A DNA stretch of 64,000 bases from Thuidium tamariscinum (taxonomy: Eukaryota > Streptophyta > Bryopsida > Hypnales > Thuidiaceae): NCBI GenBank assembly GCA_947034885.2, contig OX344753.2:868001-932000 (forward strand), given 5' to 3'. The notes below the pieces were generated by a model. It was not told where the DNA came from, did no database searches, and was given only the letters and a program-made list of their open reading frames with translations. Shown piece by piece: positions 6,141 through 62,905 of this stretch; the first letter of the stretch is position 1, and each line of letters starts with the position of its first letter. Position numbers and translations under genes: made by a program.

Positions 6141-6360
6141 CCATCTCACCAGCAGTTCATCCTTCAGATCAATCGAGTCTAACTCAACTGAACTTCATTC
6201 GGTGTCCATCCAACTTACCATTCGTTGCAGCTCATATTGTCCGCGCGCTTCAGCACGCTACTGAGCGTACTGATAGTTACTACCCGCACTTCAATTCCTT
6301 CCTTAGCTCTCGTCTACACGACCTGATCGAATTCAGCTTTGCAGCCAGCGAGATTGCAAG

Positions 6361-7032
6361 ATGGCCTCACTGAAGCGCATGGCGCTGGCGGCCCTCCTGG
6401 TGCAAGCGACGCTTCTCATCCTGCTGCCCGTGATCACACTCGCCACGGACGCCGATCCCCTCCAAGACTTCTGCGTGGCCGACGCCACAAGCAAGATCAC
6501 CGTCAACGGACTCGTGTGCAAGAACACCGCCGACGCCGAGGTCACGGACTTCCTGTTCCGCGGACTCAACAAGGCCGGGAACACCCACAACCCCACCGCC
6601 AGCGCCGTCACGCCCGTCTTCGCCGCGCAGCTGCCAGGACTCAACACGCTGGGCATCTCCATGGCGCGCCTGGACTTCGCCAAGGGCGGCATCGTCGTTC
6701 CCCACACGCACCCGCGCGCCACCGAGCTCCTGACGGTGCTGCAGGGCGAGCTGTACGTGGGCTTCGTGAGCACGGCCAACAAGCTTTTCGCCACTACATT
6801 GTACGCGGGCGATGTGTTCGTGTTTCCGAAGGGCCTGGTGCACTTCCAGCTGAATGTGGGCAAGGGTCGGGCCGTGGCGTTGGCAGCCCTGAACAGCCAG
6901 AACCCGGGCGTGCAGCTGGTGGCGCCTGCGCTTTTCGGCGCTACCCCTCCCATGAGCGACGAGGTGCTGGAGAAGGCGTTCAAGGTGAACCAGAAGACCG
7001 TGCAGCAGATCAAAGCCAACTTCCAGGCTTGA
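6361..7032 (+). CDS. Germin-like protein (secreted cupin)
   Basis: Single-exon gene of 223 residues, the usual length for germin-like proteins. Residues 1-28 are a hydrophobic signal peptide, so the product should be secreted to the cell wall. C38 and C53 match the conserved disulfide pair near the mature N-terminus. The cupin metal site is complete: H115 and H117 in a PHTHPRATE motif, E122, and H161 in a PKGLVHFQ motif. These bind manganese in barley germin and support oxalate oxidase or superoxide dismutase activity in some members; which activity this one has cannot be told. The start follows a TATA box at 6109-6118, and the signal peptide begins directly at this ATG. The coding GC content is much higher than the flanks. 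A large minus-strand frame over the same bases is a shadow. Confidence 0.95.
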   Translation: MASLKRMALAALLVQATLLILLPVITLATDADPLQDFCVADATSKITVNGLVCKNTADAEVTDFLFRGLNKAGNTHNPTASAVTPVFAAQLPGLNTLGISMARLDFAKGGIVVPHTHPRATELLTVLQGELYVGFVSTANKLFATTLYAGDVFVFPKGLVHFQLNVGKGRAVALAALNSQNPGVQLVAPALFGATPPMSDEVLEKAFKVNQKTVQQIKANFQA

Positions 7033-17373: not shown

Positions 17374-19044
17374 ATGGCGAGTTCACGGTGTCCACTTTGG
17401 CCATTTGGTGCAAGTGCACCTACAAATTTTCTGCTTCTCTCGAGGACAAACATCGAGAGAATATGTGAATTGATAAGGCATGAGGAACCTTTGAATCCAC
17501 ATCAATGTTCAAGTATGTCATCCAAGCTAAAAGAGACCATTGAAAATATTGAGTGCTTGGCATCTTTCTATGAAGACGTCAGCCCTTTCTACGGGTGTGT
17601 GGCTTTGGAGAACTTCTACCGAGTGTCTGAGAAGGCGAAGAAGCTTGTGGAGAACTGTTGCAGTGTAGATTGGTGCCATTGGTGCCGGGCATCTGCATTT
17701 CAAATCCAAAACGAGGAGGCATTTAGGGAGATTTTGTTGGAGACAAGCCTAAGTTACAGCACCATCTATGAACTCTTGGGAAACATCAACAAGGGAAATT
17801 CCCATTTGGATCTTCGAAGTTCTTCTATCTTTGATCCCCCAATTCCAAAGGAGGTTTTTGATGATCGCATTGCTTTAAGGGATAGGCTCCAGGGCCTTGT
17901 CAATGCCGCACGAGATGCCGCAAATATATCCAGCAGTGACCGCCGATCCCTTCAGCTTGGGAAGTATTTGCTGGGGAGAGTGGAATTTGCTCTCAAACAA
18001 TCCATCGACGAGGATTTTGATGTGAGGTCTTCCAATTTGTCATTGGATGGGGATGTCCTTGATGAAGAGTGGAGTAAGGAGGGAGATCTTCTCGGGGGTA
18101 ACGTTATGAAGACAGCTTGGCTTGATGTACCTTGTGCAAAGAAGGTGTTTGAGGATACATTGCGGGAGGATGAATGGCTAGCGGAAGCCAATGTTTTAGC
18201 CAGTCTCAATCACCCCAACATCGTGAAGTTTCTTTATTGCAACAAATACGAGAAAGCTCATACAAGTGGCCATTTCATTGCAATGGAGCAAATGGAAACT
18301 GGTCTTCATTCTTTTATTAGGGGGCGGAAGAGAAGAGGAGCGAAGCTGTCTTTGTTTTTAGCTCTTGACATTATTTTGCAAATTGGATATAGCATGTGCT
18401 ACCTTCATGACAATGGAATTGCTCATCGGGACCTCAAGCCTACCAACGTGGTTTGTAATTTCAATCAACAGTTTCTTGAGGTGAAGGTTGTTGATTTTGG
18501 TCTTGCTAAAATCAAATTGAACCAGAACAAGTCAAATACAATATCACACCCCAAAAGGGGTACCACACTGTACATGGCCCCGGAGGCATTCTTGAATGGC
18601 AGAGCAAATTGGTTCAAGGCTGACGTCTACAGCTTCTCCGTGATGTGCTCAGCGATTCTCTCAGGAGAGGAACCATTTCAAAACATAAAGAGGAATGATG
18701 TGTATGCTGCACTTTGCTCAGGACAGAGGCCCAAACTCCCTGTTAACACTCCAAAGGAGTTGGCTTCACTCATCAAGGAAGGTTGGGCCCAGGATAGGTA
18801 TTTGAGACCCAGTTTTCTGGACATTTGTGCGAGACTCGAGAAGCTCAGGCACAGGCTTTTGAGGAAGCATTCATTGCCTTCTTTGGGTTTACGATTAAAA
18901 GGAGAGGATCTGTACGATGAAGAGTCTCCTGGTGATTTGTACATTGAAAAAAGGATGAATAAGCGGTCTGAGCTTCGACAACTGAATCGCTCTCCTCAAA
19001 TAGCTACGAACTTGACCACAGAGGATTGCTTTGATGGGGATGAG
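17374..19044 (+). CDS. Kinase module A of the kinase-kinase-hydrolase gene, copy 1 (exon)
   Basis: Exon of 557 codons. Residues about 20-200 form a Cys/Trp-containing helical domain resembling the DUF1221/MLKL-type N-terminal domain found in front of plant TKL-like kinases. Residues about 235-500 are a protein kinase domain: the ATP-anchoring lysine is in a CAKK motif (K256), the catalytic loop HRDLKPTN has D353, DFG is at 374-376 and APE at 402-404. The glycine loop is poor (LGGNVMKT instead of GxGxxG), so activity is uncertain. The ATG is preceded by an in-frame stop at 17356. The exon ends at a consensus donor GAG|GTGAGT in phase 0, joining the linker exon at 19204. Without splicing the frame would run to 19143. 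Confidence 0.85.
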
Positions 19045-19203
19045 GTGAGTCCCACTCGTTGTGAAGAAGAATGCCTCTTATTTCGTCTCTTGTCTAGTGG
19101 GGTCATTTTCACAGCTCTCTTATTTAATTTGCATATGATTTGAATGTCAGTTTAGGTATTTGATTTGAGCTTTGACCGACGGAAGTTGTTGTGAGCCGAG
19201 CAG

Positions 19204-19581
19204 GTTGAGAAGCTACAGCCGTCCGTTGAAGACCCGCAGCAGCTTCAGGGAGGAATTGCAATTGCTGAGGATGGCCGGGGTGGCATCAATGGAAGCTCCT
19301 CCTGTGGTGGGTTGCAAGAGTCTCATTGGGGCTCCTCTAGTGGTGTCGGTGCTGGTGGTGTAGATTCTCCTCAGAGTGCTGGAAACTCCTTGCATCTGTC
19401 TAGCACATCACCTTTCTGGTCAAGTCCAACCGATAGAGGGACGGTGGAGTGGTTGAGTGAATCCCCTCCATGGATTACATCACATCCGTTGAGTGTAGAG
19501 CCTATGCAGGCGCAAGCGGGGCTGCGGGCGCTAGCGATTCCCCGGGCGACAGCTCTCTGCAGATGTACCTTTCAACTCTGA
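19204..19581 (+). CDS. Linker exon following kinase A, copy 1 (frame ends early)
   Basis: After an acceptor GCCGAGCAG the phase-0 frame continues as a Gly/Ser/Gln-rich linker containing GVDSPQSAG and TSPFWSSPTDRG, matching the start of exon 2 in copy 2 (50926 on). In copy 1 the frame meets TGA at 19579. A sensible continuation exists in the +1 frame from about 19536, so a frameshift in 19535-19579 separates module A from module B. About 130 bases here (19535-19670) have no counterpart in copy 2. Confidence 0.7.
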   Translation, partial: VEKLQPSVEDPQQLQGGIAIAEDGRGGINGSSSCGGLQESHWGSSSGVGAGGVDSPQSAGNSLHLSSTSPFWSSPTDRGTVEWLSESPPWITSHPLSVEPMQAQAGLRALAIPRATALCRCTFQL

Positions 19582-20029
19582 ATTACCGAGAGTCACTGCT
19601 GAATCGTTGCAAGCCAATAGAAAACAATCCTCACTTCTGCAACATCACTCTACCCCATTGCAAGTTGCACCATCGAGTGGGCAATTGGAATCCAACCCCG
19701 CAGCTAGTGTGACACAGCCATCCTCCTCAGGTGCTTACCAGTGCCGCGAGAGACCTTCGCGAGTGTCTCGAAATGGGTTGCAGATGAACTACCTCGACGT
19801 GGACTACTGGAGGGAAGCGTTGTCGTCTATCAAACTCGTCCAGGAGTTGCTATCCGGGCGGCGCGTGAAACTGCATCTACGTCAATGCCAGTACCTCTCG
19901 CCGAGATGAGCTACACCGGGAACTTCCTGAAGGCGAAGTCGAACTCTCTTGTTGGCATTAGCAGCGGCGATGACATCCGGCGGAAGGCTTTGCGGCAGCT
20001 GCATTTCACGGTGAAGTGCGCTGAGACTG
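19582..20029 (+). pseudogene. Broken front of kinase module B, copy 1
   Basis: Homologous to residues in front of kinase B in copy 2, but the reading frame changes twice. The segment up to QCQYLS (about 19900) is in one frame and ends at TGA 19907-19909. The segment with GDDIRRKALRQLHF (about 19910-20015) is in another. From about 20028 the first frame resumes. Pairwise comparison with copy 2 shows a 1-base and a 2-base deletion at these points. Unless these are assembly errors, copy 1 cannot make the double-kinase protein. Confidence 0.75.
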
Positions 20030-21497
20030 GTGCGCGGTTGTTGCTGCGAGATGGAGCCTTCGTGGATGGAGTCCGCCGTAACGCTCACCCAAATCAAGGA
20101 GAACATCGTGCATATCCTTCTCGACCTTCGCTGGTGGACGTCCATGGTGGACATCGCCATCGCGTCGGTCACGTGGATGACTAGTGGGGGGAAATTGGAA
20201 CAGGAGCTCCTGGAAGTGGCAAAGAAGGATTTCCAGAAGCTGCTGCAGGAGTTCAAGTCGCCCGACAATGAGCTCGATGAGGCGTTCGTCGAGGACAAGC
20301 AGCAGCTGCTCCGTCGTGTGCAGGAAGTTCTGAGTTCGTATTCTGGCAAGCCCCGCGACCTCGACTATCTCCTCGCGACCCATGTGCGGACACGACTGGC
20401 GAATACCGACCTCGTTGAGTCCATGGCGAATGTGGAGCTCAACGCGCATGAAATCTCGAGTTTCATCGGCATGGGCAGCTTCGGCGCCGTGATGAACGTA
20501 AAATGGTTGGGACGCAGCTGCGCATTGAAAGTTCTCAACTACAAGTGCGTGAAGGAAGCCACGAGCTTGAGTTCTTTCCAGCATCCGCACATCGTGCAGT
20601 TTTTCCGGTACTGGGAAGCACCGGTCTCGTCCACCCCCTACAGCACGCCTCGCGATGCGTCCGTCGCACCTCCGGACCTGAACTTGACCATACAATCACA
20701 CATTCTGATGGAGCTCCTGCCGACTGACCTGGCGAAGCACATTCGCGACCCCGAGACCAACGCCATGCCGCAGGACGTCGCGATTGACGTGATGCTTCAA
20801 GTGACCAAGGCGATGTGGCATTTGAACAACTTCAACGTCTCGCACCGCGATTTGAAGCCCAGCAACGTGCTGCTGGAACCCGTGAACCGTGGGGAGGTTC
20901 CCGAGCTCGCGGAGCGCGGCTACGTGCGTGTGAAGCTCTGCGATTTCGGCTTGGTGAATACCGAGGCCAAAAGTATCGTGAACACCACGTTAACGAAAAA
21001 TGTGGGGACGAGGAGGTACGCAGCGCCAGAGGTTTTCATTAAAGCTTCCCCGTTCTTCAAGGAATCGCCGAGGTTTCCTAGGTTAACGGATGTGTGGAGC
21101 TTCGGGATCATGTTCAACGAGATGCTCAGTGGGCAACCTCCATTCCTGGTAGAACAGCAGGCACACATCATGAGCGATTTGCACACCAAGATCCCGAAAG
21201 GCCTGCGGCCGCAGCTTCCAGTGAATTGTCCTGACTACTTGAAGTTCTGCATTACGAGTTGCTGGCAGCTCCGGCCGCAAGACAGGCCCAGCTTCGCCGA
21301 TTTGTGGAAGCTGCTGCGGTTTGCGCAGGTCCGGAGCCTGGGGATCATTCGCGAGGATCACGACCTCTTCACGTTCACCACCAGACAGGGCGTGGTGAAA
21401 CGGTTGCACAAACCGAGACAGTTGGCCCCGGACAATTATCCGAAATCCAGCTCCTTCTGGTTGATGTACTTGCGGGTCACGTTCCTCTTTGCTAGAA
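20030..21497 (+). CDS. Kinase module B of the kinase-kinase-hydrolase gene, copy 1 (exon)
   Basis: Open frame with the second half of a helical front domain (motif EMEPSW at 20049 on, then DLRWWTSMVD) followed by a canonical protein kinase domain: glycine loop GMGSFGAV near 20470-20490, CALK lysine motif, HRDLKPSN near 20843, DFG at 20942-20950 and APE near 21022. All catalytic residues are present, unlike kinase A's weak glycine loop. The exon ends at a strong donor AGAA|GTAAGT (21498) in phase 1. The next exons continue the same frame into a hydrolase. Read without splicing, the frame stops at 21652. A true start is uncertain because upstream frameshifts cut it from module A. Confidence 0.85.
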
Positions 21498-21762
21498 GTA
21501 AGTATTATATGACAACACTTGCTTCCTTTACATTTGCTCAACCCGAGTTTTCGTGGCCAATTGCATCGCTCGTTGAGTCTGGAGAAATTGGAGTGCAGAT
21601 GAGGCCAAGATTTATTCTGCTCTTGAAGAATATGGCATGCTTTGGTGATTAAACGGGTTGAATTGGACGGAAGGAAATCCTCATAAAAGTACAGGAAGAC
21701 CAATTTGGGCCTAACTGCCCATGGAGAACGATCTAGCTCATTTTTGTGATGCATGTGTTCAG

Positions 21763-21822
21763 GGCGCGACGCCAGCTTCCACCAATCCAGCCAACACTTC
21801 TACAGGAAAACGTCCGAAGCAG
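21763..21822 (+). CDS. Small connecting exon, kinase B to hydrolase, copy 1
   Basis: A 60-base exon between acceptor TGTGTTCAG and donor GCAG|GTCAGT. It takes phase 1 from kinase B and passes phase 1 to the hydrolase exon at 22401, giving an open joined frame. The same acceptor region is recognisable in both decayed 3' fragments (about 26024 and 56780) and, truncated, in copy 2 (53629). Phase agreement across three exons is the main evidence that kinase and hydrolase form one protein. Confidence 0.7.
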
Positions 21823-21897
21823 GTCAGTGACCGAATTTGGCAATCTGATTCTGTGTGATTGCTTATGAATGTGATTGTATGTTTGGAATTGGGGATT

Positions 21898-22400
21898 CTT
21901 AATATCAGTATGGTGAAATGCTTGCCGCAGATTCTATGTGGTTTCTTGTTCAGAATTGCCGAATCTTAGCATCAGTATACCGAAATACTTGCTGCAGATT
22001 TTATGTGATTGCATGTTCGAAATTGCTGATTCTTAGCATCAGTATGGTGAAATGCTTGCCGCAGATTCTGTGTGGTTTCTTGTTCAGAATAGTCGATTCT
22101 TAGCATCAGTATACCGAAATGCTTGCTGCAGATTTTATGTGATTACATGTTCGAAATTGCTGATTCTTAGCATTGGTATTCCGAAATGCTTGCTGCAGAT
22201 TTTGTGTGGTTCCTTGTTCAGAGATACCGATTCCTAGTATCAGTATAGTGAAATTCTTGCTGCAGATTCTGTGTGGTTCCTTGTTCGGATTTACTGATCC
22301 TTCGTATCAGTATAGTGAAATGCTTGCTGCAAATTTTTATGTGATTGCATGCTCGGAATTGTCGATTCCTAGTATCAGTGTGGTGAAATGATTGCTGCAG
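21898..22400 (+). repeat. Intronic minisatellite with a splice acceptor in each unit
   Basis: About 7.5 tandem units of 67 bases with a two-unit (about 134 base) higher-order pattern. Each unit holds GAAATGCTTGCTGCAG or a close variant (near 21914, 21982, 22049, 22117, 22184, 22250, 22318, 22385). The last unit provides the actual acceptor of the hydrolase exon at 22401. The two decayed gene fragments have only one unit at the same place, so the array expanded in copy 1. Confidence 0.9.
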
Positions 22401-22711
22401 GTTCTTCAACGGCGCGAGCAGACGACAAGCCGCTGGGCTATCTCGTGAACCTCGTGGGGCCGCAGGACACCATGCGGGACGAGGCCCCGGAAAAGACCAA
22501 GCTGGACGTGATTTTCTTTGAAGGCAACGTGGGACGAAAAAAGTACCTGTCATGCAAGGATACGTGGGTGCAGCGCGGCAAGCCGGACGTGTGGTGGCCG
22601 CGTGACTGGCTGTCGAAAGATTTCAATGGCGACATCCGCGTCTTGGTGCTGGAGTACAGCATCTCGGAGAGTGGCGTCGAAGGCGTTGTGGAGGAGTTGC
22701 AAAAACTCCTG
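22401..22711 (+). CDS. SERAC1-like hydrolase, front exon, copy 1
   Basis: Joined in phase to the connecting exon, it reads a segment with DVIFFEGN, a TWVQRGKPDVWWPRDWL block and DIRVLVLEYS. The pattern (first strand plus loop, then W-P-x-D-W-L and R-V-L-x-L-x-Y) is typical of the front of SERAC1/PGAP1-like alpha/beta-hydrolases, which act on lipid or ester substrates; the substrate here is unknown. The 3' splice boundary is uncertain. The frame stays open to TAA at 22721, and I found no consensus donor in the phase needed for the next exon at 23000, which may reflect decay. Confidence 0.65.
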
Positions 22712-22999
22712 GTCTTCATTTAAGTGAAAAAAAAACTGGACTTCCCGGATTTTGTGCGTCATGTGGAAGCTTTCTTTCTGTTCAATCTTTTTCGGTTTCA
22801 ACACATGCAATACCCTCTAGCGATTCTAGTGCCGTAATAATTGGCCCTATGTGAATTTCTACTATTTTCGCATAGGTAGCAATCAAATCGGTCATTTCAA
22901 ACCCATGAAATCTCGTTCCTTTAGGGTTTACCGAGGAATTTGAGATCCACGATTCGTATCTGATTTCAATCATACTTCTTGCTTGCTTTCTTGCTGCAG

Positions 23000-23399
23000 T
23001 GACCGGTGGAACCGAGGGCATACCTGGAACCGGCCCATTGTCCTCGTGGGTCAGAGTTCAGGGTGCGTGGTGATTGAGCAACTGGTGGTGGCGCTGAACG
23101 AAAAGGCGGAGTCGTTTGACAGCTTGATTGACGACTTCGAAGCGAACCGCGCCAAGGTCTCCAAGGCTTTCCTCGCAAGCCTGGCTGGATGCTTCTTCTA
23201 CGCTCCTCCTTACACCGGACTTGTGCCCAGTGAGGATCTGCTCAAGTACGTCTTCGGCGGCTTGAGCTACTCGCCTACTCTCTTCAACGATCTGTGTCTA
23301 AGTTCTCCCAAACTGAAGGAGCTTTCCGAGCGCTTCATGGAAGCGAGAAATGACGGCGTGAAATTGATGGCACTGATCTAGGGCTTTCACACCAGAGGG
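23000..23399 (+). CDS. SERAC1-like hydrolase, nucleophile exon, copy 1
   Basis: Follows acceptor CTTGCTGCAG. It carries the nucleophile-elbow strand RPIVLVGQSSG (GxSxG kept, although copy 2 has the more usual GHSLG), followed by a helical lid region with FFYAPPYTG. The frame has TAG at 23379-23381 where copy 2 has GAG. Beyond it the homologous frame continues GFHTRG to a donor GGG|GTAAGG. Copy 1 would therefore lose the last exon with the catalytic histidine unless the stop is read through or is an assembly error. Confidence 0.65.
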
Positions 23400-23561
23400 G
23401 TAAGGCTAGCTCGCGAGTCGTTTTGTTTACTCCCAGCTATTGTTGGGTTCTTAGATCTTTCCTGAGAAACTGTTTGAAATTGGAAATTGAAGTTGATTTC
23501 GGTAGAATCTGTTTCGAATTGAAGTTGTTAGGTTGTCATCTGAAGCGATTGGTATTTGCAG

Positions 23562-23738
23562 AGAACCGTTGTACCAGCAGCGTCGATGGATGATTTCAAA
23601 GCAAGTGGAGGCAGAGTAGAGGAGCTCAATGATTCGAATCACATTGATACGTGCAAGCCTGTGGACAAGAAGCACCCTGCTTATCGGTTTCTTTTTGAGT
23701 TTATTCAAGCGCTTTTGAAGGAGAGAATGGTGATGTAG
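23562..23738 (+). CDS. SERAC1-like hydrolase, last exon with catalytic His, copy 1
   Basis: After acceptor TTTGCAG, in phase 0 with the previous donor, it reads TVVPAASMDDF ... DSNHIDTCKPVDKKHPAY to TAG at 23736. The D-x-x-H-x-x-x-CKP block is the position of the catalytic histidine in SERAC1-like hydrolases. It is separated from the nucleophile exon by an intron of about 160 bases that is conserved in copy 2. Confidence 0.65.
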   Translation, partial: RTVVPAASMDDFKASGGRVEELNDSNHIDTCKPVDKKHPAYRFLFEFIQALLKERMVM

Positions 23739-25198: not shown

Positions 25199-25339
25199 AG
25201 ATCAATTTCTCGAAGTTCTAGACTTTTGAAAAAGATGAGCTGATTAGTTATGGGTTAGGAGTTCTTAAATGCTCGCTGTAGAATTAGCCCATAATTCAAG
25301 AGAATCTGTGTACATACTTAACAAACAAATGCAAGAGAG

Positions 25340-26590
25340 TATTGGATCACGACCTCTTCACATTCACCACCAGCGAGGGCGTGGTGGAACGGTTGCATAA
25401 TCCGAAACCGTCGGCCCGGACAAGGATCCGAAACCCAGTTCTTTGGGGATGATATTCCGGCGGATCACTTCGCTCTCCACCAGAAGTATGTCGTTTATCT
25501 TGCAACCGTGTCACGGAGATTTTCTTCACACTAGCGTAACCCCCTTGTCGAAGCGACATTTCAAAACCATCACCGGTATGTTGGTTCAACTAGCTAGAAG
25601 GTTGAAACATCCCATTTTCTGTGTGTTTTCAATGTTTTCTCATTTAACCATTAAGTTACCAGAGAACGTCGCATGTTTGGCCCCGGAGTTGTTTTCATTT
25701 CCATCCATTCGTCAAAGAGTTCTGCGCTTATGTGGACTTAGAGTCCGTGGCAGTTTCTGTTACTCAATGCATCTGTCGTCATGCAGAAACGACGCTCGTT
25801 GTGGTTAAACAATAGTGCATGCAGGGAACTAAGACGCTTAGGATCGGACTAGCTAGACAGATAAGGATGAATGCTTCTGATGCTGGTGTTTCCACAAACT
25901 GGGGCTGAAACAGTATCCCGATTATGTTGCGTCAGGTGCTTTGCCCTAGTGTCGGTTTCCTTTTGCATCACTGTCCATGACCATTGATCCAGCATTTTTT
26001 TGTGATGTACTGTATGTGTTCAGGACGGGACCCCAGCAGGCCAGCATCGCAGCCATCTAAAACTCCTCCCGAAAGCAGTCGAGAGCAGGTCCGTGGCAGC
26101 GTTTGTTGATATGCTTTTGTGTTGTTTCAGTGTTCTGGATGTCCGATTCTTAGAGTCATAATGTACTGCTGCAGGTTCATCAAAGACGCAATCTGAGGGC
26201 AAGCCGCTTGGCTACCTCGTGAACCCCGTGGGTACGCAGGGCGCAACCTCGGGTAGGACGAAGGTGGACGTGATTTTCTTCGAAGGGAATGTCGGACGGT
26301 GGAGGAACCTGTCGTGCCCGGATAAGCCGGACGTGTAATGGCTGCTCGATTGGTTGTCGAAGGATTTCAGAGGCGACATCCGTGTCTTGCTGCTGGAATA
26401 TTGTACAGCATCGCGGAGAATGGCGTCACTTTGGCAAATTTCTAATGATTGGCACTTTTCCAGATCGATACATGTGGAACCAGAGATCTATCCTGGTCCA
26501 AAATTTCAGGGCTCATGCATTGAACTTGAACTATGTCACTCTCTTTGGCACTGTGACACATGGTTTACAGAGCATGCTCATCAAATCATG
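25340..26590 (+). pseudogene. Decayed 3' fragment of the kinase-hydrolase gene (within copy 1)
   Basis: 25348-25560 matches the C-terminal tail of kinase B (DHDLFTFTT region) with a 1-base loss. 25612-25825 matches the following intron. From about 26034 the connecting exon and from 26176 the hydrolase front exon follow (VDVIFFEGNVG, then DWLSKDFRGDIRVLLLEY). The hydrolase part has lost about 20 bases of the TWVQRGKP block and has TAA where the intact gene has a Trp codon (about 26337). No kinase core, nucleophile or histidine exon is present. It shows that the ancestral segment already had a partial tandem copy. Confidence 0.8.
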
Positions 26591-37271: not shown

Positions 37272-37985
37272 TAACTCCTAAAGGACCAAATACTGTTTTT
37301 TTGGCAATATAGTGATTTTGGATAGCTTACTATAGATGGAGTTTGTTTTTCTTTGAGATTTTCACACAACATGTGCCCAAAGAATAGCTATAAGGCTCAA
37401 CAATTTTCATAATTTTTGACTACATGGCTAAAAAGTTATTGCATGATGTGTCATTTTCAAAATTTGGAGGGTAGCCCAAGCAACTCATAAAACTTCTTTA
37501 AAAATCATTTTTTTTAAAATAAAAAATTGAAATTGATTCTTTAGATTTATATATACATTGAAAAGTTTTGAATCATTCCATTTTGATTTAAGAGATGAAA
37601 TTTATGAGGAGTTTTAGTTTGTCGGTAGGTACAGCATCTATAAAAACCATACCTATCCACAAACTTAAGCTCCTCATAACTTTCATCTCTTAAATCAAAA
37701 CAAAATTATTCAAAGCTTCATATATATATAATCACTTTCAAATTTCAATTTTTAGAAAAAATGATTTTTAAAGAAGTTTTATGAATTGCTTGGGCTACCC
37801 TCCAAATTTTGAAAATGACACATCATGCAATAACTTTTTAACCATGTAGTCAAAAATTATGGAAATTGTTGAACCTTACAACTATTCTTTGGATACATGT
37901 TGTGTGAAAATTTCAAAGAAAAAAAATAGAATTATACCAAAAATTGCTATATTGCCAAAAATGGTGTTTGGACCTTTAGAGGTTA
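37272..37985. repeat. Fold-back element with ~350-base arms
   Basis: Two arms of about 350 bases face each other around 37635 with almost no loop. For example TTTGGAGGGTAGCCCAAGCA (37466 region) returns as its inverse GCTTGGGCTACCCTCCAAA (37789 region), and the outer ends are TAACTCCTAAAGGACCAAA and the inverse TTTGGACCTTTAGAGGTTA. A transcript would fold into one long hairpin. No open frame of note; target duplication not identified. Confidence 0.8.
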
Positions 37986-38686: not shown

Positions 38687-38917
38687 CACTACAAGAGAAA
38701 GGGGTGTTTTAAGTATATTCCTAGAGATAAGATTTTAAGCAATGAAATTTTTATGAGAATTCTAGTAAAAATTTACTAGAAATACATGTCTTTCTAGTAA
38801 CATTTTACTAGAAAGATATGTACTTCTAATAAATTCTTACTAAAATCTCTTAGAAAGGTCATTACTTAAAATCTTATCTCTAGAACTACACTTAAAACAC
38901 CCCATTCTATTGTAGTG
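38687..38917. mobile_element. CACTA-like MITE (231 bp)
   Basis: Begins CACTACAAGAGAAAGGGGTG and ends CACCCCATTCTATTGTAGTG. The 3-bp duplication TTG lies at 38684-38686 and 38918-38920. The interior is largely palindromic. CACTACAAG ends are classical for plant CACTA elements. Confidence 0.85.
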
Positions 38918-49079: not shown

Positions 49080-50741
49080 ATGGCGAGTTCAGGGTGTTCA
49101 TTTTGGCCATTTGGTGCAAGTGCACCTTCTTCCCGTACAAATTTTCTGCTTCTCTCGAGGACAAACATCGAGAGAATTTGTGAATTGATAAGGCATGAAG
49201 AACCTTTGAACCCTCATCAGTGTTTAAGTATGTCATCCAAGCTAAAAAAGACCGTTGAAAATATTGAGTGCTTGGCATCTTTCTGTGAAGACGTCAACCC
49301 TTTCTACAGTTGTGTGGCTTTGGAGAACTTCTATCGAGTGTCTGAGAAGGCGAAGAAGCTTGTGGAGAACTGTTGCAGTGTGGATTGGTGCCATTGGTGC
49401 CGGGCATCTGCATTTCAAATCCAAAACGAGGAGGCGTTTAGGGAGATTTTGCTGGAGACAAGCCTCAGTTACAACATCATCTATGAACTTTTGGAAGACA
49501 TCAAGAAGGAAAATTCCCATTTGGATCTTCGTAGTTCTTCTACCTTTGATCCCCCAAGTGCAGAGGAAATTTTTGAGGATCGCATTGCTTTAAGGGATAG
49601 ACTCGAAGGCCTTGTCAATGCTGCAACTATCTCTAGCAGTGACCTCCGATCCCTACAGCTTGGAAAGTATTTGCTGGGGAGAGTGGAATTTGCTCTCAAA
49701 CAATCCATCGACGAGGATTTTGATGTGAGGTCTTCCAATTTGTCATTGGATGGGGATGTCCTTGATGAAGAGTGGAGTGAGAAGTCAGAACGCCTCGGGC
49801 CTAGTGTTATCAAGACAACTTGGCTTGATGTACCTTGTGCAAAGAAGGAGTTTGAGGATACATTGCAAGAGAAAGAATGGCTAGCAGAAGCCAATGTTTT
49901 AGCCAGTCTCAATCACCCCAACATCGTGAAGTTTCTTTGTTGCAACAAATATGAGACTGTTCACACAAGTGGCCATTTCATCGCAATGGAGCAAATGGAA
50001 ACTAGCCTTGGTTCTTTTATGAGGAGGCGGAAGGAAAGACTTCCTTTGTTTTTGGCTCTTGACGTCATTTTGCAGATTGGATACGGCATGTGCTACCTTC
50101 ATGATAATGGAATTGCTCATCGGGACCTCAAGACTCCCAATGTGGTTTGCAGTTATAATCAACCATTTCTTGAGGTGAAGGTTGTTGATTTTGGCCTTGC
50201 TAAAATCAAATTGAACGAGAACAAGTCAAATACAATTACACGCCCGAAAATTGGCACCACAACTTACATGGCCCCGGAGGCATTCTCGAATGGCAGAGCG
50301 AATTGGTTCAAGGCTGACGTCTACAGCTTCTCAATCATGTGCTCAGTGATTCTCTCAGGAGAGGAACCATTTCAAGACTTAAAGAGGGGAGATCTATGCG
50401 CAGCAATTCGCTCAGGACAGAGGCCAAATCTCCCTGTTGACACTCCAAAGGAGTTGGCATCTCTCATCAAGGATGGTTGGGCTATGGATAGGGATTTGAG
50501 ACCCAGTTTTCTGGACATTTGTGCAAGACTCGAGAAGCTGAGGCACAGGCTTTTGAGGCAGCATTCATTACATTCTTTGGGTTTACGACTAAAAGTAGAG
50601 GATCAATATGACGAAGAGTATCCTGATGATTTGTGTGTACAGAAAATGATGAAGAAGCGGTCTGAGTGTCGACAACTGGATCGCTCTCCTCAAATAGCTA
50701 TGAAAATGACCACTGAAGAGGAGTGGTTTGATGGGGATGAG
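49080..50741 (+). CDS. Kinase module A of the kinase-kinase-hydrolase gene, copy 2 (exon 1)
   Basis: 554 codons from ATG 49080 (start MASSGCSFWPFG, aligned with copy 1's start). Same layout as copy 1: DUF1221/MLKL-type helical domain with the CSVDWCHWC motif, then a kinase domain with CAKK, HRDLKTPN, DFG and APE motifs. The glycine loop is again degenerate (LGPSVIKT). Protein identity to copy 1 is roughly nine residues in ten. The exon ends at donor GAG|GTGAGT in phase 0 and joins exon 2 at 50926. Without splicing the frame would end at 50885 with a hydrophobic tail, probably intron sequence. Confidence 0.88.
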
Positions 50742-50925
50742 GTGAGTCCTACTCTTTGTGATCAAAGAAAAATGCCTCCTACTTCGTTTGGTCAAATGGG
50801 ATCATTTTCACAGTTGTTTTTTTGTCTAATTTGCTATACAATGGGTATGTTGGGGGATTTCTTGAATGCCAGTTTAAATATTTGATTTGAGCTTTGACCA
50901 GCGGAGGTTGTTGTGAGCCGAGCAG

Positions 50926-53086
50926 GTTGAGGAGCAAGAACAGTCCGTTCAAGCCCAGCAGCAGCTTCCACGAGGACTTGCTTTTCAGGAAGAAATTGCT
51001 ATTGGAATGGGTTTTGCTGAGGATGGCCGGGGCGGCAACGACGGTGGCTCCTCTGGTGTTGGTGTTAGTGGTGTAGATTCTCCTCAAAGTGCTGGAATCG
51101 CGTTGCATCTATCTAGTACATCACCTATATGGTCAAGTCCAACCGATGGAGGGACGGTGGAGTGGTTGAGTGCAACTCCTCCGTTGAGTGTAGAGGCTAT
51201 GCAGGCGGAAGCGGGGGTGCAAGTTGCACCTCCGTGCCGGCAATTCGAATCCAAACCTGCAGCTACTGCGACACGTCCATCCTCAGGTGCCAACCAGTGC
51301 TGCACGAGACCTTCGCTAGTGTCTCGAAATGGGTTGGAGATGGACTACCTCGACGTCGACTACTGGAGGGAGGCGTCGTCGTCTATCAAGCTTGTCCAAG
51401 AGTTGCTATCCGGGTGCCGCGTACAACTGCATCTGCGTCAATGCCAGTACCTCTCGACCAAGATGGGCAACATCGGGAACCTCTTGAAGGCGAAGGCGAA
51501 ATCTCTCGGTGGCATTACCAACGGCGATGACATTCGGCGGAAGGCTCTGCGGCAGCTGCATTTCACGGTGAAGTGCGCGGAGACGCTGGTGCGCAGCTGT
51601 AGCTGCGAGATGGAGCCTTCGTGGCTGGAGTCCGCCATGACGCTCACTCAAATCAAGGAGGACATCGTGCACATCCTTCTCGACCTTCGCTGGTGGACGT
51701 CTATGGTGGATATTGCCATCGCGTCCGTCTCGTGGATTACGAGCGGGGGGAGATTCGAACAAGTGCTTCTGGAGGTGGCGGAGAAGGATTTCCAGACGCT
51801 GCTAGAGGAGTATAAGTCGCCCGCCAATGAGCTCGATGAGGCGTTCGTCGAGGACAAGCAGCAGCTGCTCCAACGTGTGTGGGAGGTGCTGAGCTCGTAT
51901 TCTGGCAAACCCCACGACCTCGACTATCTCCTCGCAACCCATGTGAGGATGCGGCTGGAGAATACCGACCTTGTCCAATCCATGGTGAATGTGGAACTCA
52001 ACGAGTACAAAGTCGTGGAGTTCATCGGCAGTGGCAGCTTCGGCGCCGTGATGAACGTAGAATGGTTGGGACGCAACTGCGCTCTGAAAATTCTCAACTA
52101 CAAATGCGCGAGAGAAGCCACCAGCTTGAGCGCTTTCCATCATCCGCACATCGTGCAGTTCTTCCGCTACTGGGAAACCCCGGTATCGGGCAAAACTAAG
52201 GCCCACAGCATGACCCGTCGGAGCAGCACAGCAATGGGAAGCTCCCGATATTCTCGCGACGTGTCCATCACCCCAGAGCTCAGCTCGATCGCTCGATCGC
52301 ACATGCTTATGGAGCTTTTGCCGGCCGACCTAGCGAAGCACATGCGCCACGCCGCGACCGACGCCTTGCCGCAGGACGTCGCGATTGACGTGATGCTTCA
52401 AGTGACCACGGCAATGTGGCATTTGAACAACTACAACGTTGCGCACCGTGATTTGAAGCCCAGCAACGTGCTGGTGGAACCCGTGAGCTCTCAGGAGGTT
52501 CCCGAGCTCGCGGCACGCGGCTACTTGCGTGTGAAGCTCGGTGATTTTGGCTTGGTGAACATCAGGGCCATGAGCATGGTGAACACCAGTTTGACGAAAA
52601 ATGTAGGGACGAGGATTTACGGACCGCCAGAGGTTTTCATTAAAGGTTCCCCGTTCCCCAAGGAATCGTCGAGGTTTCCTAGGTTAACGGATGTGTGGAG
52701 CTTCGGGATCATGTTCAACGAGGTGCTCAGTGGGCAGCCTCCGTTCCTGATAGAACAGACACACGGCATGGGCGAGCTCCACACCAAGATCCAGAAAGGC
52801 CTGCGGCCGCAGCTCCCAGCGAATTGTCCTGACTACTTGAAGTTCTGCATCACGAGTTGCTGGCAGCTCCGACCGCAGGACAGGCCCAGCTTCGCCGATT
52901 TGTGGAAGCTGCTGCGCTTTGCGCAGGTCCGGAGCCTGGGGATCATTCGCGAGGATCACGACCTCTTCACGTTCACCACCAGAGAGGGCGTGGTGAAACG
53001 GTTGCATGAACCCAAACAGTCGGCCCCGGAGAAATTCAGCTCTTTGGGATTGCTTTTCCGGCAGATTACTCCACTCGCCACCAGAA
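50926..53086 (+). CDS. Linker and kinase module B, copy 2 (exon 2)
   Basis: After acceptor GCCGAGCAG the phase-0 frame is open throughout: a Gln/Gly/Ser-rich linker, a second helical front domain (DVDYWREA, GDDIRRKALRQLHF, EMEPSW, DLRWWTSMVD), then a canonical kinase with GSGSFGAV (52027 on), CALK, HRDLKPSN (D at 52450-52452), DFG (52543-52551) and PPE in place of APE (52624-52632). Joined to exon 1 this is a tandem-kinase protein of about 1,290 residues. A donor AGAA|GTATGT at 53087 (phase 1) matches copy 1, but the following exon in copy 2 is out of phase. If unspliced, translation ends at 53151 after a short tail. Confidence 0.87.
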
Positions 53087-53628: not shown

Positions 53629-53994
53629 GACGGGATCCTCGTGGGTCATAGTTTAGGGTGCGTGGTGATTGAGCAGCTGGTGGTGGCACTGAACAAAAGG
53701 GCGGAGTCGTTTGGCGTCTTGAAAGACGACTTCGAAGCCAACCGCACCAAGGTCTCCAAAGCTTTCCTCGCAAGCCTGGCTGGATGCTTCTTCTACGCTC
53801 CTCTTTACACCGGACTGGTGCCCAGTGAGGATCTGCTCAAGTACGTCTTCGGCCGCTTGACCTACTCGTCTACTCTGTTCAACGATCTGTGTGTACCTTC
53901 TCCCAAACTGAAGGAGCTTTCCGAGCGCTTCATGGAAGCGAGAAGTGACGGCGTGAAGTTGATGGCATTGATCGAGGGCTTTCACACCAGAGGG
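53629..53994 (+). pseudogene. SERAC1-like hydrolase nucleophile exon, front deleted, copy 2
   Basis: The acceptor GCGTTCAG belongs to the small connecting exon, but after 6-7 bases the sequence jumps to the middle of the nucleophile exon (DGILVGHSLGCVV). About 1.25 kb present in copy 1, with the hydrolase front exon, is missing. The nucleophile elbow GHSLG is perfect and the rest is open to donor GGG|GTAAGG. Splicing from kinase B (phase 1) meets TAG within eight codons, so the fusion is broken. Whether this exon is expressed separately is unknown. Confidence 0.75.
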
Positions 53995-54156
53995 GTAAGG
54001 GAAGCTATCGAGTCGTTTTGTTTACTGGCAACTATAGTTGGGTTCGTAGATCTTCCCTGAGAAGTTTTTTGAAATTGGAAATTGAAGTTGAATTGGGTAG
54101 AGTCTCTTTCGAATTGAAGTTGTTAGGTTGTCATCTGAAGCGTGTGGTATTTGTAG

Positions 54157-54333
54157 AAAACTGTTGTACCACCAGCGTCGATGGATGATTTCAAAGCAAG
54201 TGGAGGCACAGTGGTGGAGCTCATTGATTCCAATCACATTGATACGTGCAAACCTGTGGACAAGAAGCACCCTGCTTACCGGGTTTTTTTGGAGTTCATT
54301 CAAGAGCTTATGAAGGAGAGAAAGGTGATGTAG
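54157..54333 (+). CDS. SERAC1-like hydrolase, last exon with catalytic His, copy 2
   Basis: Acceptor TATTTGTAG, phase 0 with the previous donor. Reads TVVPPASMDDF ... DSNHIDTCKPVDKKHPAY to TAG at 54331. It is intact, but follows an exon that has lost its front, so a working hydrolase is unlikely. Confidence 0.6.
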   Translation, partial: KTVVPPASMDDFKASGGTVVELIDSNHIDTCKPVDKKHPAYRVFLEFIQELMKERKVM

Positions 54334-55805: not shown

Positions 55806-55949
55806 AGATCAATTTCTCGAAGTTCTAGACTTTTGAAAAAGATGAGCTGATTAGTTATGGGTTAGGAGTTCTTAAATGCTCGCTGTAGAATTAGCCCATA
55901 ATTCAAGAGAATCTGTGTACATACTTAACAAACAAATGCAAGAGAGTAT

Positions 55950-57265
55950 TGGATCACGACCTCTTCACATTCACCACCAGCGAGGGCGTGGTGGAACGGT
56001 TGCATAATCCGAAACCGTCGGCCCGGACAAGGATCCGAAACCCAGTTCTTTGGGGATGATATTCCGGCGGATCACTTCGCTCTCCACCAGAAGTATGTCG
56101 TTTATCTTGCAACCGTGTCACGGAGATTTTCTTCACACTAGCGTAACCCCCCTGTCGAAGCGACATTCACCGGTATGTTGGTTCAACTAGCTAGAAGGTT
56201 GAAACATCCCATTTTCTGTATGTTTTCAATGTTTTCTCATTTAACCATTAAGTTACCAGAGAACGTCGCATATTTGGCCCCGGAGTTCTTTTCATTTCCA
56301 TCCATTCGTGAAAGAGTTCTGCGCTTATGTGGACTTAGAGTCCATGACAGTTTCTGTTACTCAATGCATCTGTCGTCATGCAGAAACGACGGTCGTTGTG
56401 GTTAAACAATAGTGCATGCAGGGAACAACAGATATTTCGATAAAATGGCGATATTACTGTGCCATTTTTTCATTCGTTTTCTAGGACGGGTATAGATTTC
56501 AGACTTCGAGGAGCGGTATACATTTTAGACCGCACGGTCTAAACCTGAAAATGCCAAGTTTGTGGCATACCGCCATTTTAACGAAATATCCGTTGAACTA
56601 AGACGCTCGGGACCAGACAGATAAGGATGAATGCTTCTGATGCTGGTGTTTCCACAAACTGGGGCTGAAACAGTATCCCGATTATGTTGCGTCAGGTGTT
56701 TTGCCCTAATGTCGGATTTCTTTTGCATCACTGTCCATGACCATTGATCCAAATATTTTTTGCGATGTATGTGTTCCGAACGGGACCCCAGCAGTCGTCC
56801 AAAACTCCGCCCAAAAGCAGTCGAGAGCAGGTCCGTGGCAGCATTAGTTGATCTGCTTTTGTGTTGTTCGGTGTTCTGGATGTCCGATTCTTACTGACAT
56901 GATTTACTTCTGCAGGTTTGTCAAAGACGCGATCCGAGGCCAAGTCGCAGGGCGTCCTGGTGAACCCAGCGGGTACGGAGGGCGCAACCTCGGGTAGTTC
57001 GAAGAGGGGCATGATTTTCTTCGAAGGGAACGGCCGACGGGAAGTACTTGTCGTGCAAGGATACGTGGGTGCAGCGTGGCAAGCCGGACGTGTGGTGGCC
57101 GCGCGATTGGTTGTCGAAGGATTTCAATGGCGACATCCGCGTCTTGCTGCTCTAGTAATGCATCCCGGAGGCTGTCGTCACTTCGGCAAAGTTTTCTAAG
57201 GATTGGCACATTTCCAGATCTATGCATGTGGAACCTGAGATCGATCTACTCTGGTCCAAAGTTTT
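55950..57265 (+). pseudogene. Decayed 3' fragment of the kinase-hydrolase gene (within copy 2)
   Basis: Counterpart of 25340-26590: kinase B tail (55955-56165, with a 10-base deletion against copy 1), intron, connecting exon (about 56785-56830) and hydrolase front exon (about 56915-57170). The hydrolase part keeps the GKPDVWWPRDWL block at the DNA level but is frameshifted before it and ends in TAG at about 57153. A 168-bp MITE sits inside (56427-56594). Confidence 0.8.
56427..56594. mobile_element. MITE with AAC-GATATTTCG ends, empty site known (168 bp)
   Basis: Ends AACAGATATTTCGATAAAAT and inverse TTTTAACGAAATATCCGTT. The 4-bp duplication GAAC lies at 56423-56426 and 56595-56598. Copy 1 has a single GAAC at 25826-25829 with no insertion. 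Confidence 0.85.
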
Positions 57266-61468: not shown

Positions 61469-62431
61469 ATGGGGTTGCCCCTGTCGCAGATTATTAAAGC
61501 ACAGGCCCGTAAGGGGAAAGTGTCTGTGATGGCTAGTGGAAGCAACCTCAAAGGAACTATAGGTGCAGGAACATCCGCTTCTGCACAGAAATCCGGAAAA
61601 AAATTGAAAGCAGTGAGGGAACCAATTCCCAAGAACACTGCAAAACGCATCCAAAAAACTCCTATTGCAACACCTACAAAGGTGTCTGTGCCAGAGGTAC
61701 AATTGGGATTGGAAGAAACCCTAGTCTCTCTAACAGTTGCAGTTCCTACATAGGTAACACAGTTGCCAAAACGTGTGAGGAAAAAATCTTTGGTCCCACC
61801 AAAAGAGCTGGAACTAAGTATTACCATTTCTGTTGGCAATTCACACATTCCTTTGTCATATTTACAGAAAATGGAAGAGTTTCTTGATACTGAATGCATC
61901 AGTGGATTGTGTTCCATTGAGAGAGGAGGAGCTCTCCAACGACTCCATCTTCAAATGGTTTGCCGAATCATGGTATCTTCTGCGGCTGTTGTTAGCAAAC
62001 GCATCAAGGCTCATCTTGGATGGGATAAAGTTGCCACTGCTCCAGTAGGGCACCACATTTTGAGCAAAACCCTCCGCAATACAGGTCTCCATACATTCAT
62101 TGGCATGCTTGGTTATTGCATCAAAGACAAAGGCAAAGATCACTTTGATTGCGTTCATCGAAACATTACTCCTCAACAAATGGATGAGGGTGTTGAGGAG
62201 TATATTAAGCATGGTACACCGTTTGCCAAGAATCGTGTCACTTTGACACACAAGAATCTTTTGGAGAAGGCTGGCACTTTTTGTAGATACAAATTGAAAA
62301 AACACTTGGGCTCTACACTTGCTGGTGTGCTCTTGGCCATGCTACAATCCGGTATATACATCCCTTCATCTTCATGGGTTATTCCTCCTCGGCAAGGTGG
62401 AATGGAATATACCAAGGCCTCTACATTGTAG
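61469..62431 (+). pseudogene. Rep-like HUH endonuclease, Replitron type
   Basis: A basic, disordered leader (61469-61750) is followed in the same frame by TAG (61751-61753), then an open frame to TAG (62429-62431). The second part has the three motifs of replication-initiator HUH nucleases: motif I (SITISVGN, about 61817), motif II (ERGGALQRLHLQ, His-x-Gln metal site, about 61921-61956) and motif III (GYCIKDKGK, Y-x-x-K catalytic tyrosine, about 62112). Such proteins cut single-stranded DNA and attach to its 5' end. This arrangement fits Replitron transposons described in algae and plants. No helicase domain is visible. The first TAG could lie in a 57-base GT-AG intron (61697-61753, phase 0). 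After the second stop the frame reads on sensibly to TGA 62510, suggesting a decayed gene. Confidence 0.7.
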
Positions 62432-62594: not shown

Positions 62595-62905
62595 GTGAGT
62601 TTTTATCCAATTATTATGTTTTCCTTCACTTTGTAGTTTTTACCTATAAGAATCATATGAAATTGTGTTCTAGTTTAATTCTTATCCAATTATTATGTTT
62701 TCCTTCACTTTGTAGTTTTTACCTCTAAGAGTCAAGTGCAACTATGTTTTAGTTTGATACTTATCTAATTATTAAGTTTTCCTTCATTTTGTAGTTTTTA
62801 CATCTAAGAATCAAGTGCAATTGTTTTCTAGTTTAATTCTTATCCAATTATGTTTTCCTTCACTTTGTAGTTTTCACTTCTAGAAATCAAGTGCAACTGT
62901 TTTTT
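62595..62905 (+). repeat. Tandem repeat, about 78 bases x 4
   Basis: Units contain TATCCAATTATTATGTTTTC, TTCACTTTGTAG and AAGAATCAAGTGCAA. A fifth, detached unit lies at about 62978-63042 after a similar CCAAGTGAGTT donor-like start. The pattern looks like multiplied intron sequence behind the Rep-like frame. Confidence 0.75.

Follow-up and report, generated by a model that had tools for sequence, protein, structure and literature searches.

We examined a 64,000-nucleotide stretch of the genome of the moss Thuidium tamariscinum (contig OX344753.2, hereafter C5, forward-strand positions 868,001 to 932,000; G000:C5:868001-932000), referred to below as the window, and sought its relatives in the whole assembly of 363,211,507 bases in 19 contigs. 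The window holds two tandem copies of a gene from what is probably a small kinase-fusion family, a judgement that applies mainly to the anatomy of its members. The ancestral gene would have encoded, in pieces joined by introns, two kinases that each follow a helical domain, first a pseudokinase (kinase A) and then, beyond a flexible linker, an active one (kinase B), with a serine hydrolase as the tail. A second cluster near 17 Mb of the same contig would have persisted as genes for kinase B and hydrolase devoid of kinase A. The predicted fusion of kinase B to the hydrolase is the best-supported claim here, because every close hydrolase match on C5 lies behind kinase B or its tail and the phases of the junctions between them are conserved.

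Copy 1 (17374-23738) and copy 2 (from 49080) lie ~31.6 kb apart and share 82-94% identity over the five longest blocks that correspond between them. A DNA search of the genome with kinase B of copy 1 returned 12 matches, all on C5. A protein search with kinase B of copy 2 returned at least 97 matches (the best 75 of 610 candidates were scored, and lower ranks are a lower bound), among which eight loci, again all on C5, showed at least 62% identity; the next best among the matches listed lay on C10 and were 34-42% identical. The six of these loci situated outside the window, among them loci at 0.95, 1.00, 16.99, 17.01 and 17.05 Mb of C5, were examined with 9.9 kb around each. Kinase A precedes kinase B in the four loci near 0.9 Mb (copies 1 and 2, L010 and L014), and kinase B stands without kinase A, in the stretches examined, in the four loci near 17.0 Mb (L009, L011, L012 and L013).

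Three of the latter, L009, L011 and L013, yielded gene models of 915, 901 and 933 residues with the order helical domain, kinase B, hydrolase. The models contain no internal stop and have GT-AG introns in phases 1, 1, 2 and 0, their start codons and the end of their last exon being chosen by hand. The junctions between kinase B and the hydrolase are kept in all three, as is a short exon of 57 (L009), 60 (L011) or 60 (L013) bases, the counterpart of a 60-base exon in copy 1. Searching the genome with the L009 hydrolase produced 23 matches at an E value of 0.001 or below, of which 19 fell in family loci on C5 and four, more distant, elsewhere (one on C7 and three on C2). All nine places on C5 where the hydrolase was found lie 3′ of kinase B or of its tail; two of them are degenerate fragments in the window, consisting of the tail of kinase B with hydrolase exon 1 (25338-26410, plus strand) and of the same tail with part of that exon (55945-57179, plus strand). 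Judged by relatives in the same genome, the kinase-plus-lipase fusion put forward in the initial annotation thus appears real, as these three uninterrupted models suggest, although the tail is damaged in both window copies. At the fourth 17 Mb locus, L012, no hydrolase was seen in the 9.9-kb stretch, and the genome-wide hydrolase search lists none nearby. An apparent internal repeat was noted in the C-lobe of kinase B in the otherwise uninterrupted model of L013.

Copy 1, on the plus strand, retains every piece of the architecture in order. Exon A (17374-19044), encoding a helical domain and a kinase A without glycine-rich loop, is open and is followed by a phase-0 intron (19045-19203, GTGAGT...GAGCAG), by an exon for the linker, second helical domain and kinase B whose frame is broken (19204-21497), by the 60-base exon (21763-21822, phase 1 on both sides), by hydrolase exons 1 (22401-22719) and 2 (23000-23399), and by the last hydrolase exon with its stop codon (23562-23738). 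The end of kinase B, AGAA/GTAAGT at 21497 (slashes mark exon boundaries), is a phase-1 donor and hydrolase exon 1 begins in phase 1 at 22401, so that kinase B leads by way of the short exon into the hydrolase, as first described. The joined frame of exon A and linker meets its first in-frame stop at 19579-19581, and the linker holds a 136-base block near 19522 that is absent from copy 2. Relative to copy 2, the second helical domain has one base fewer near 19901 and two fewer near 20027, the frame entered after the one-base loss running into a TGA at 19907-19909; in the genome protein search with kinase B of copy 2, three TGA codons were seen inside the linker and kinase B region. Further downstream, the phase-2 hydrolase junction reads CAT/TTAAGT where relatives have CAG/GTAAAT, CAG/GTAAGT or CCG/GTAAAT, the donor at 22720 being lost, and exon 2 carries GQSSG in place of the GHSLG of relatives as well as a TAG at 23379-23381 (GAG in copy 2). 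Copy 1 is most likely a decayed copy of the whole A-linker-B-hydrolase architecture. In the intron preceding its hydrolase, a 67-base unit is repeated ~8 times (21869-22405), with CTGCAG-like motifs that resemble the acceptor.

Copy 2, on the same strand, comprises an open exon A (49080-50741) with the same content as that of copy 1, a phase-0 intron (50742-50925) and an open exon for the linker, second helical domain and kinase B (50926-53086) ending in a phase-1 donor, GTATGT. Its hydrolase is a remnant (53629-54330) in which the start of the short exon is joined to the GHSLG-bearing exon, followed by the last exon; nothing is left of the 5′ hydrolase exons, and splicing from the kinase B donor would enter the remnant in the wrong frame. 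Exon A, linker and kinase B form a single open frame, which has 1295 codons with the last intron retained and 1281 when spliced to the remnant, upon which the frame ends at once (RRDPRGS, stop). The product of copy 2 is most likely a tandem pseudokinase-kinase of ~1281-1295 residues without a working hydrolase. The best Pfam kinase matches of the individual kinase reading frames in the window had E values from 2.2e-33 to 7.8e-40. A readable full fusion within the window was rejected in view of the frame breaks of copy 1 and the lost hydrolase exons of copy 2. Of the fused protein initially predicted, the repeated helical-domain and kinase units are open in copy 2, L010 and L014, whereas neither window copy encodes the whole; two such units and a hydrolase would nevertheless be a fair picture of the ancestral gene.

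The hydrolase is also damaged in the remaining two loci near 0.9 Mb. In L010, its exon 1 is split over two frames, exon 2 reads TAG in place of the TGG of relatives and remains clearly similar for ~50 residues only, and the short exon measures 59 bases by hand count; in L014, the hydrolase remnant is degenerate and kinase B stops ahead of its donor. The hydrolase is uninterrupted in none of the four A-bearing loci versus three of the four A-less ones, which is a pattern rather than a test since the loci are related, and an uninterrupted A-B-hydrolase gene was found at none of the eight kinase B loci. The two clusters have likely exchanged sequence: the L009 kinase groups with copies 1 and 2 in the kinase tree, L009 sits between the clusters in the helical-domain tree with weak support (0.71), and the synonymous distance between L009 and L011 is 0.15 in the helical domain versus 0.85 in the kinase.

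The state of the two kinases was read from an alignment of the four fused kinases A, the eight kinases B and nine A-like kinases from C8, C6, C2 and C7. The nine come from the upper part of a list of at least 83 matches (the best 78 of 771 candidates were scored); L029 was read with its flanks and has no kinase B within the 5.5 kb examined, the stand-alone state of the others being assumed from search lists. The glycine-rich loop (five alignment columns) is lost in all four fused kinases A and kept in eight of the nine A-like kinases and in all eight kinases B; the A-like kinase missing it, L035, has lost HRD too. Fused kinases A retain the lysine, the alpha-C glutamate and HRD, with DFG altered in two of the four (DFS in L010 and DFD in L014), and kinase B keeps loop, lysine, glutamate, HRD and DFG in 8/8 loci. 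Because the loop is missing from A and all motifs are kept in B, kinase A appears pseudokinase-like and kinase B is probably an active kinase. On C8, at ~15.5-15.8 Mb, A-like kinases with helical domains lie clustered, most of them sharing 42-47% identity with kinase A.

Searched against the PDB, kinase B matched 6ka4 first (E 4.2e-28; labeled F22L4.1 protein) and 6lba second (E 7.8e-18; labeled protein kinase family protein), ahead of the rest, both of which we take to be Arabidopsis MLKLs. Among the helical domains, DUF1221 was matched by six of seven B members (best E 7.5e-5) and RPW8 by all four A members (best E 6.2e-4) at E values up to 10, in either case below cut-off for the first members, whose scores were printed; the A and B helical domains aligned to one another in hhalign with a probability of 71.8 and an E value of 3.5e-5. 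The closest structures bear out a likeness of kinase B, but not specifically of kinase A, to MLKL kinases; the MLKL-type helical domains originally suggested have Pfam matches below cut-off.

Selection was gauged from pairwise Nei-Gojobori ratios of nonsynonymous to synonymous change (dN/dS) in readable segments only. The input included 135 codons of the copy 1 second helical domain, a partial exon 1 for L010 and a copy 1 exon A segment with one intron codon too many, and left out hydrolase exon 1 of copy 2 and the hydrolases of L012 and L014. Ratios were 0.36-0.75 for the kinase A exon (6 pairs), 0.21-0.76 for the B helical domain and 0.25-0.64 for kinase B (28 pairs each), and 0.21-0.60 and 0.24-0.62 for hydrolase exons 1 and 2 (10 pairs each), with no pair reaching 1 in A, B or these two hydrolase exons; in damaged copies they reflect past constraint. 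The window locus might be a decaying remnant whose protein no longer serves a purpose, the working members being the B-hydrolase genes at 17 Mb and the stand-alone A-like kinases. The several breaks of copy 1, the damaged hydrolase in 4/4 A-bearing loci, and the DFS and DFD of L010 and L014, whose kinases A form the closest pair and have a dN/dS of 0.75, speak for such decay, but the A and B frames are open in copy 2, L010 and L014 and most pairs have ratios well below 1, and we regard this explanation as unlikely.

The motif GHSLG is present in the hydrolase of the three uninterrupted genes and in the remnant of copy 2, GQSSG taking its place in copy 1. The best Pfam match among four members was Abhydrolase_6 at an E value of 0.0061, other weak matches being to C2orf69, Ser_hydrolase, PGAP1 and DUF676, and the scores printed, those of the first member, were all below cut-off; NCBIfam returned no match and PDB profile searches no credible one. 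The initial annotation had called the domain SERAC1-like. As a firm assignment this was rejected, the Pfam matches being limited to alpha/beta-hydrolase profiles below cut-off, with no SERAC1- or SesB-specific profile in the search; the label is plausible but unproven. The hydrolase also matches, with 34% identity and an E value of 2.7e-5, a frame on C7 that adjoins an NB-ARC frame. This locus (L028, G000:C7:17406500-17411500, minus strand) has an open frame that combines a caspase domain (Peptidase_C14, E 7.3e-17) with a hydrolase-like region, lies ahead of the NB-ARC frame (E 4.5e-32), and is possibly a caspase-hydrolase fusion to a nucleotide-binding leucine-rich-repeat (NLR) protein; its nucleophile position reads AHGLGG, the serine seemingly lost. 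Rather than an effector, the tail of the kinase genes could be an integrated decoy that mimics an enzyme attacked by pathogens. One study presents the extra domains of wheat kinase fusion proteins as proposed decoys (PMC10260399), and each of the four A-bearing loci has lost its tail or carries a damaged one; the retention of GHSLG in 3/3 uninterrupted genes and the constraint on hydrolase exons 1 and 2 argue against a decoy, which we consider improbable.

The junction of kinase A to kinase B reads GATGAG/GTGAGT at the donor and GAGCAG/GTT at the acceptor in both copies, the next exon starting with GTTGAG, which confirms the phase-0 passage from kinase A to linker noted at the outset. It is kept in all four A-bearing loci, L010 and L014 included, the donor of L014 being GTAAGT. 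In the three undamaged loci (copy 2, L010 and L014) the linker can be read through in the predicted frame but not in the other two, and when the bases of the copy 2 linker were shuffled 5000 times, the frame stayed open in 10 cases. Insertions and deletions between copies 1 and 2 are divisible by three in 4/4 cases in exon A, 5/6 in the linker and 1/5 in the intron, a count that leaves out the rest of the kinase B exon, where a gap-rich loop has single gaps that are mostly not multiples of three and sum to 42, besides further gaps of 3 and 9. The possibility that the linker is the 5′ region of a stand-alone kinase B gene was rejected, the linker being unmatched upstream of the 17 Mb B genes: over the 2.1-2.3 kb leading up to the helical-domain start of the four loci, that start itself aside, the search gave three matches only, of 17-21 bases with E values of 0.046-0.74, one of them in an intron.

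Kinases A and B could nonetheless be separate neighboring genes, the phase-0 junction being a coincidence or the site of occasional read-through. The linker has dN/dS values of 0.84, 0.93 and 1.33 in three pairs, which fit a disordered linker and also non-coding DNA; the helical domain of kinase B still opens with a methionine, close to where the 17 Mb models begin; and both an A-like kinase with no kinase B behind it (L029) and kinases B without A exist. Against two separate genes stand the conservation of the junction in 4/4 loci despite synonymous divergence of up to ~0.55 in A, a linker that is open in the right frame in every undamaged locus, and the failure to find linker DNA upstream of the 17 Mb B genes, and on this evidence we hold that arrangement to be quite improbable. 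Lastly, assembly or sequencing error is an unlikely source of the damage in copy 1, because the changes are of several kinds and far apart and the one- and two-base gaps lie outside homopolymers.

Several results weigh against the reconstructed tandem-kinase fusion and the role proposed for it below. To the linker ratios and the methionine of kinase B must be added that transcription and splicing from A to B are predictions from genomic DNA, as are the enzyme activities. Kinase A is not specifically MLKL-like, its first PDB match being 9p9u (filed as epidermal growth factor receptor) and its second 6lba (E 3.2e-27), with Eph receptors close behind. The Pfam matches of the helical domains lie below curated cut-offs, the unrelated DUF2564 scores better than DUF1221 (E 0.017) in the B helical domain of copy 2, and profile searches of the PDB with the helical domains gave nothing credible. 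Structure predictions of copy 2 from four-row alignments were unusable, with a mean predicted local distance difference test score of 34.4 for kinase B and 38.1 for kinase A. The hydrolase resembles known families weakly, its last exon has dN/dS values of 0.21-1.40 (10 pairs), and the L010-L014 ratio for kinase A is the high one given above.

Elsewhere in the window, positions 61754-62428 (plus strand) match the HUH endonuclease domain of Replitrons (PF21859, E 1.7e-21) and, less strongly, a C-terminal domain, near a 79-base tandem repeat at 62603-62900. An open frame at 6307-7029 (plus strand) encodes a cupin (Cupin_1, E 1.3e-49), and the segments 37342-37926 and 38687-38917 match their own reverse complement at ~85%, forming long foldback repeats. 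Rfam and tRNA scans of the window returned no match.

Reasoning from the families to which the domains show likeness, the functional steps may be pictured as follows. The protein would be an intracellular sensor and executor in one, in which kinase A, having lost its ATP-binding loop, serves as bait or brake. Disturbance of kinase A would free kinase B, the switch, which would in turn let the helical domains act at membranes; where a B-hydrolase gene is present, its lipase-like tail would add an attack on membrane lipids. An immune or cell-death role for the family is a tentative proposal by analogy, to which we give somewhat less than even weight. More doubtful is the complete scheme of a cell-death machine other than an NLR, in which kinase-controlled, membrane-attacking helical domains are combined with a hydrolase of membrane lipids and a dead kinase is held out as pathogen bait, the A-bearing line having later dropped the hydrolase and kept the bait.

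Each single feature of the family has precedent. In plant MLKLs and Pm13-type fusions a helical domain precedes a kinase, as is predicted here, and kinase B is nearest to 6ka4 and 6lba. Pm13 is described as a kinase that carries a helical domain and retains every key kinase residue (PMC10951266), and the kinase B of the moss family likewise keeps the kinase motifs checked. The moss genes differ in that two such units occur in one predicted protein, with a hydrolase tail in relatives, and in that their helical domains score below Pfam cut-offs. Tandem kinase-pseudokinases (TKPs) such as WTK1/Yr15 and RPG1, together with Lr9 (WTK6-vWA), have two kinase domains, one of them without key residues, according to PMC6170490 and PMC10260399; the moss genes differ in placing the pseudokinase ahead of an MLKL-like kinase B and in giving both kinases a helical domain. 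The first of these sources counts 92 TKPs, one of them from Physcomitrella and none with additional domains, and associates 175 of 184 TKP kinase domains with receptor-like kinases (PMC6170490); the second describes vWA and Vwaint domains at the C-terminal end of the tandem kinase Lr9 (PMC10260399).

Bryophyte NLRs of the HNL and PNL types are described in PMC3352924 and PMC11218826 as carrying a kinase or an alpha/beta hydrolase as attached domain. In the moss family, however, kinase and hydrolase occur together, and no NB-ARC domain was seen in the window reading frames scanned with Pfam or in the three B-hydrolase models, which end after the hydrolase. With fungal SesB-like domains, which sit on NLR-like proteins according to PMC4986451, and with human SERAC1, the tail shares a GxSxG motif and weak alpha/beta-hydrolase profile matches; it differs in having no match above cut-off to the profiles used, none of which is specific to SesB or SERAC1. 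The combination of features was not seen in the literature searched: among the matches listed, no title or abstract opening describes the A-B-hydrolase architecture, which, with subscription journals sparsely covered, is weak evidence of absence.

A growing number of disease-resistance proteins, most of them from cereals, belong to the class of kinase fusions. If the present reading is true, the occurrence in a moss of tandem MLKL-like kinases with a lipase-like tail would mean that such fusions arose outside flowering plants too. One genome here holds both intact-looking and decayed members, and the B-hydrolase models of 915, 901 and 933 residues are candidates in which the cooperation of kinase, helical domain and hydrolase in cell death may be studied.

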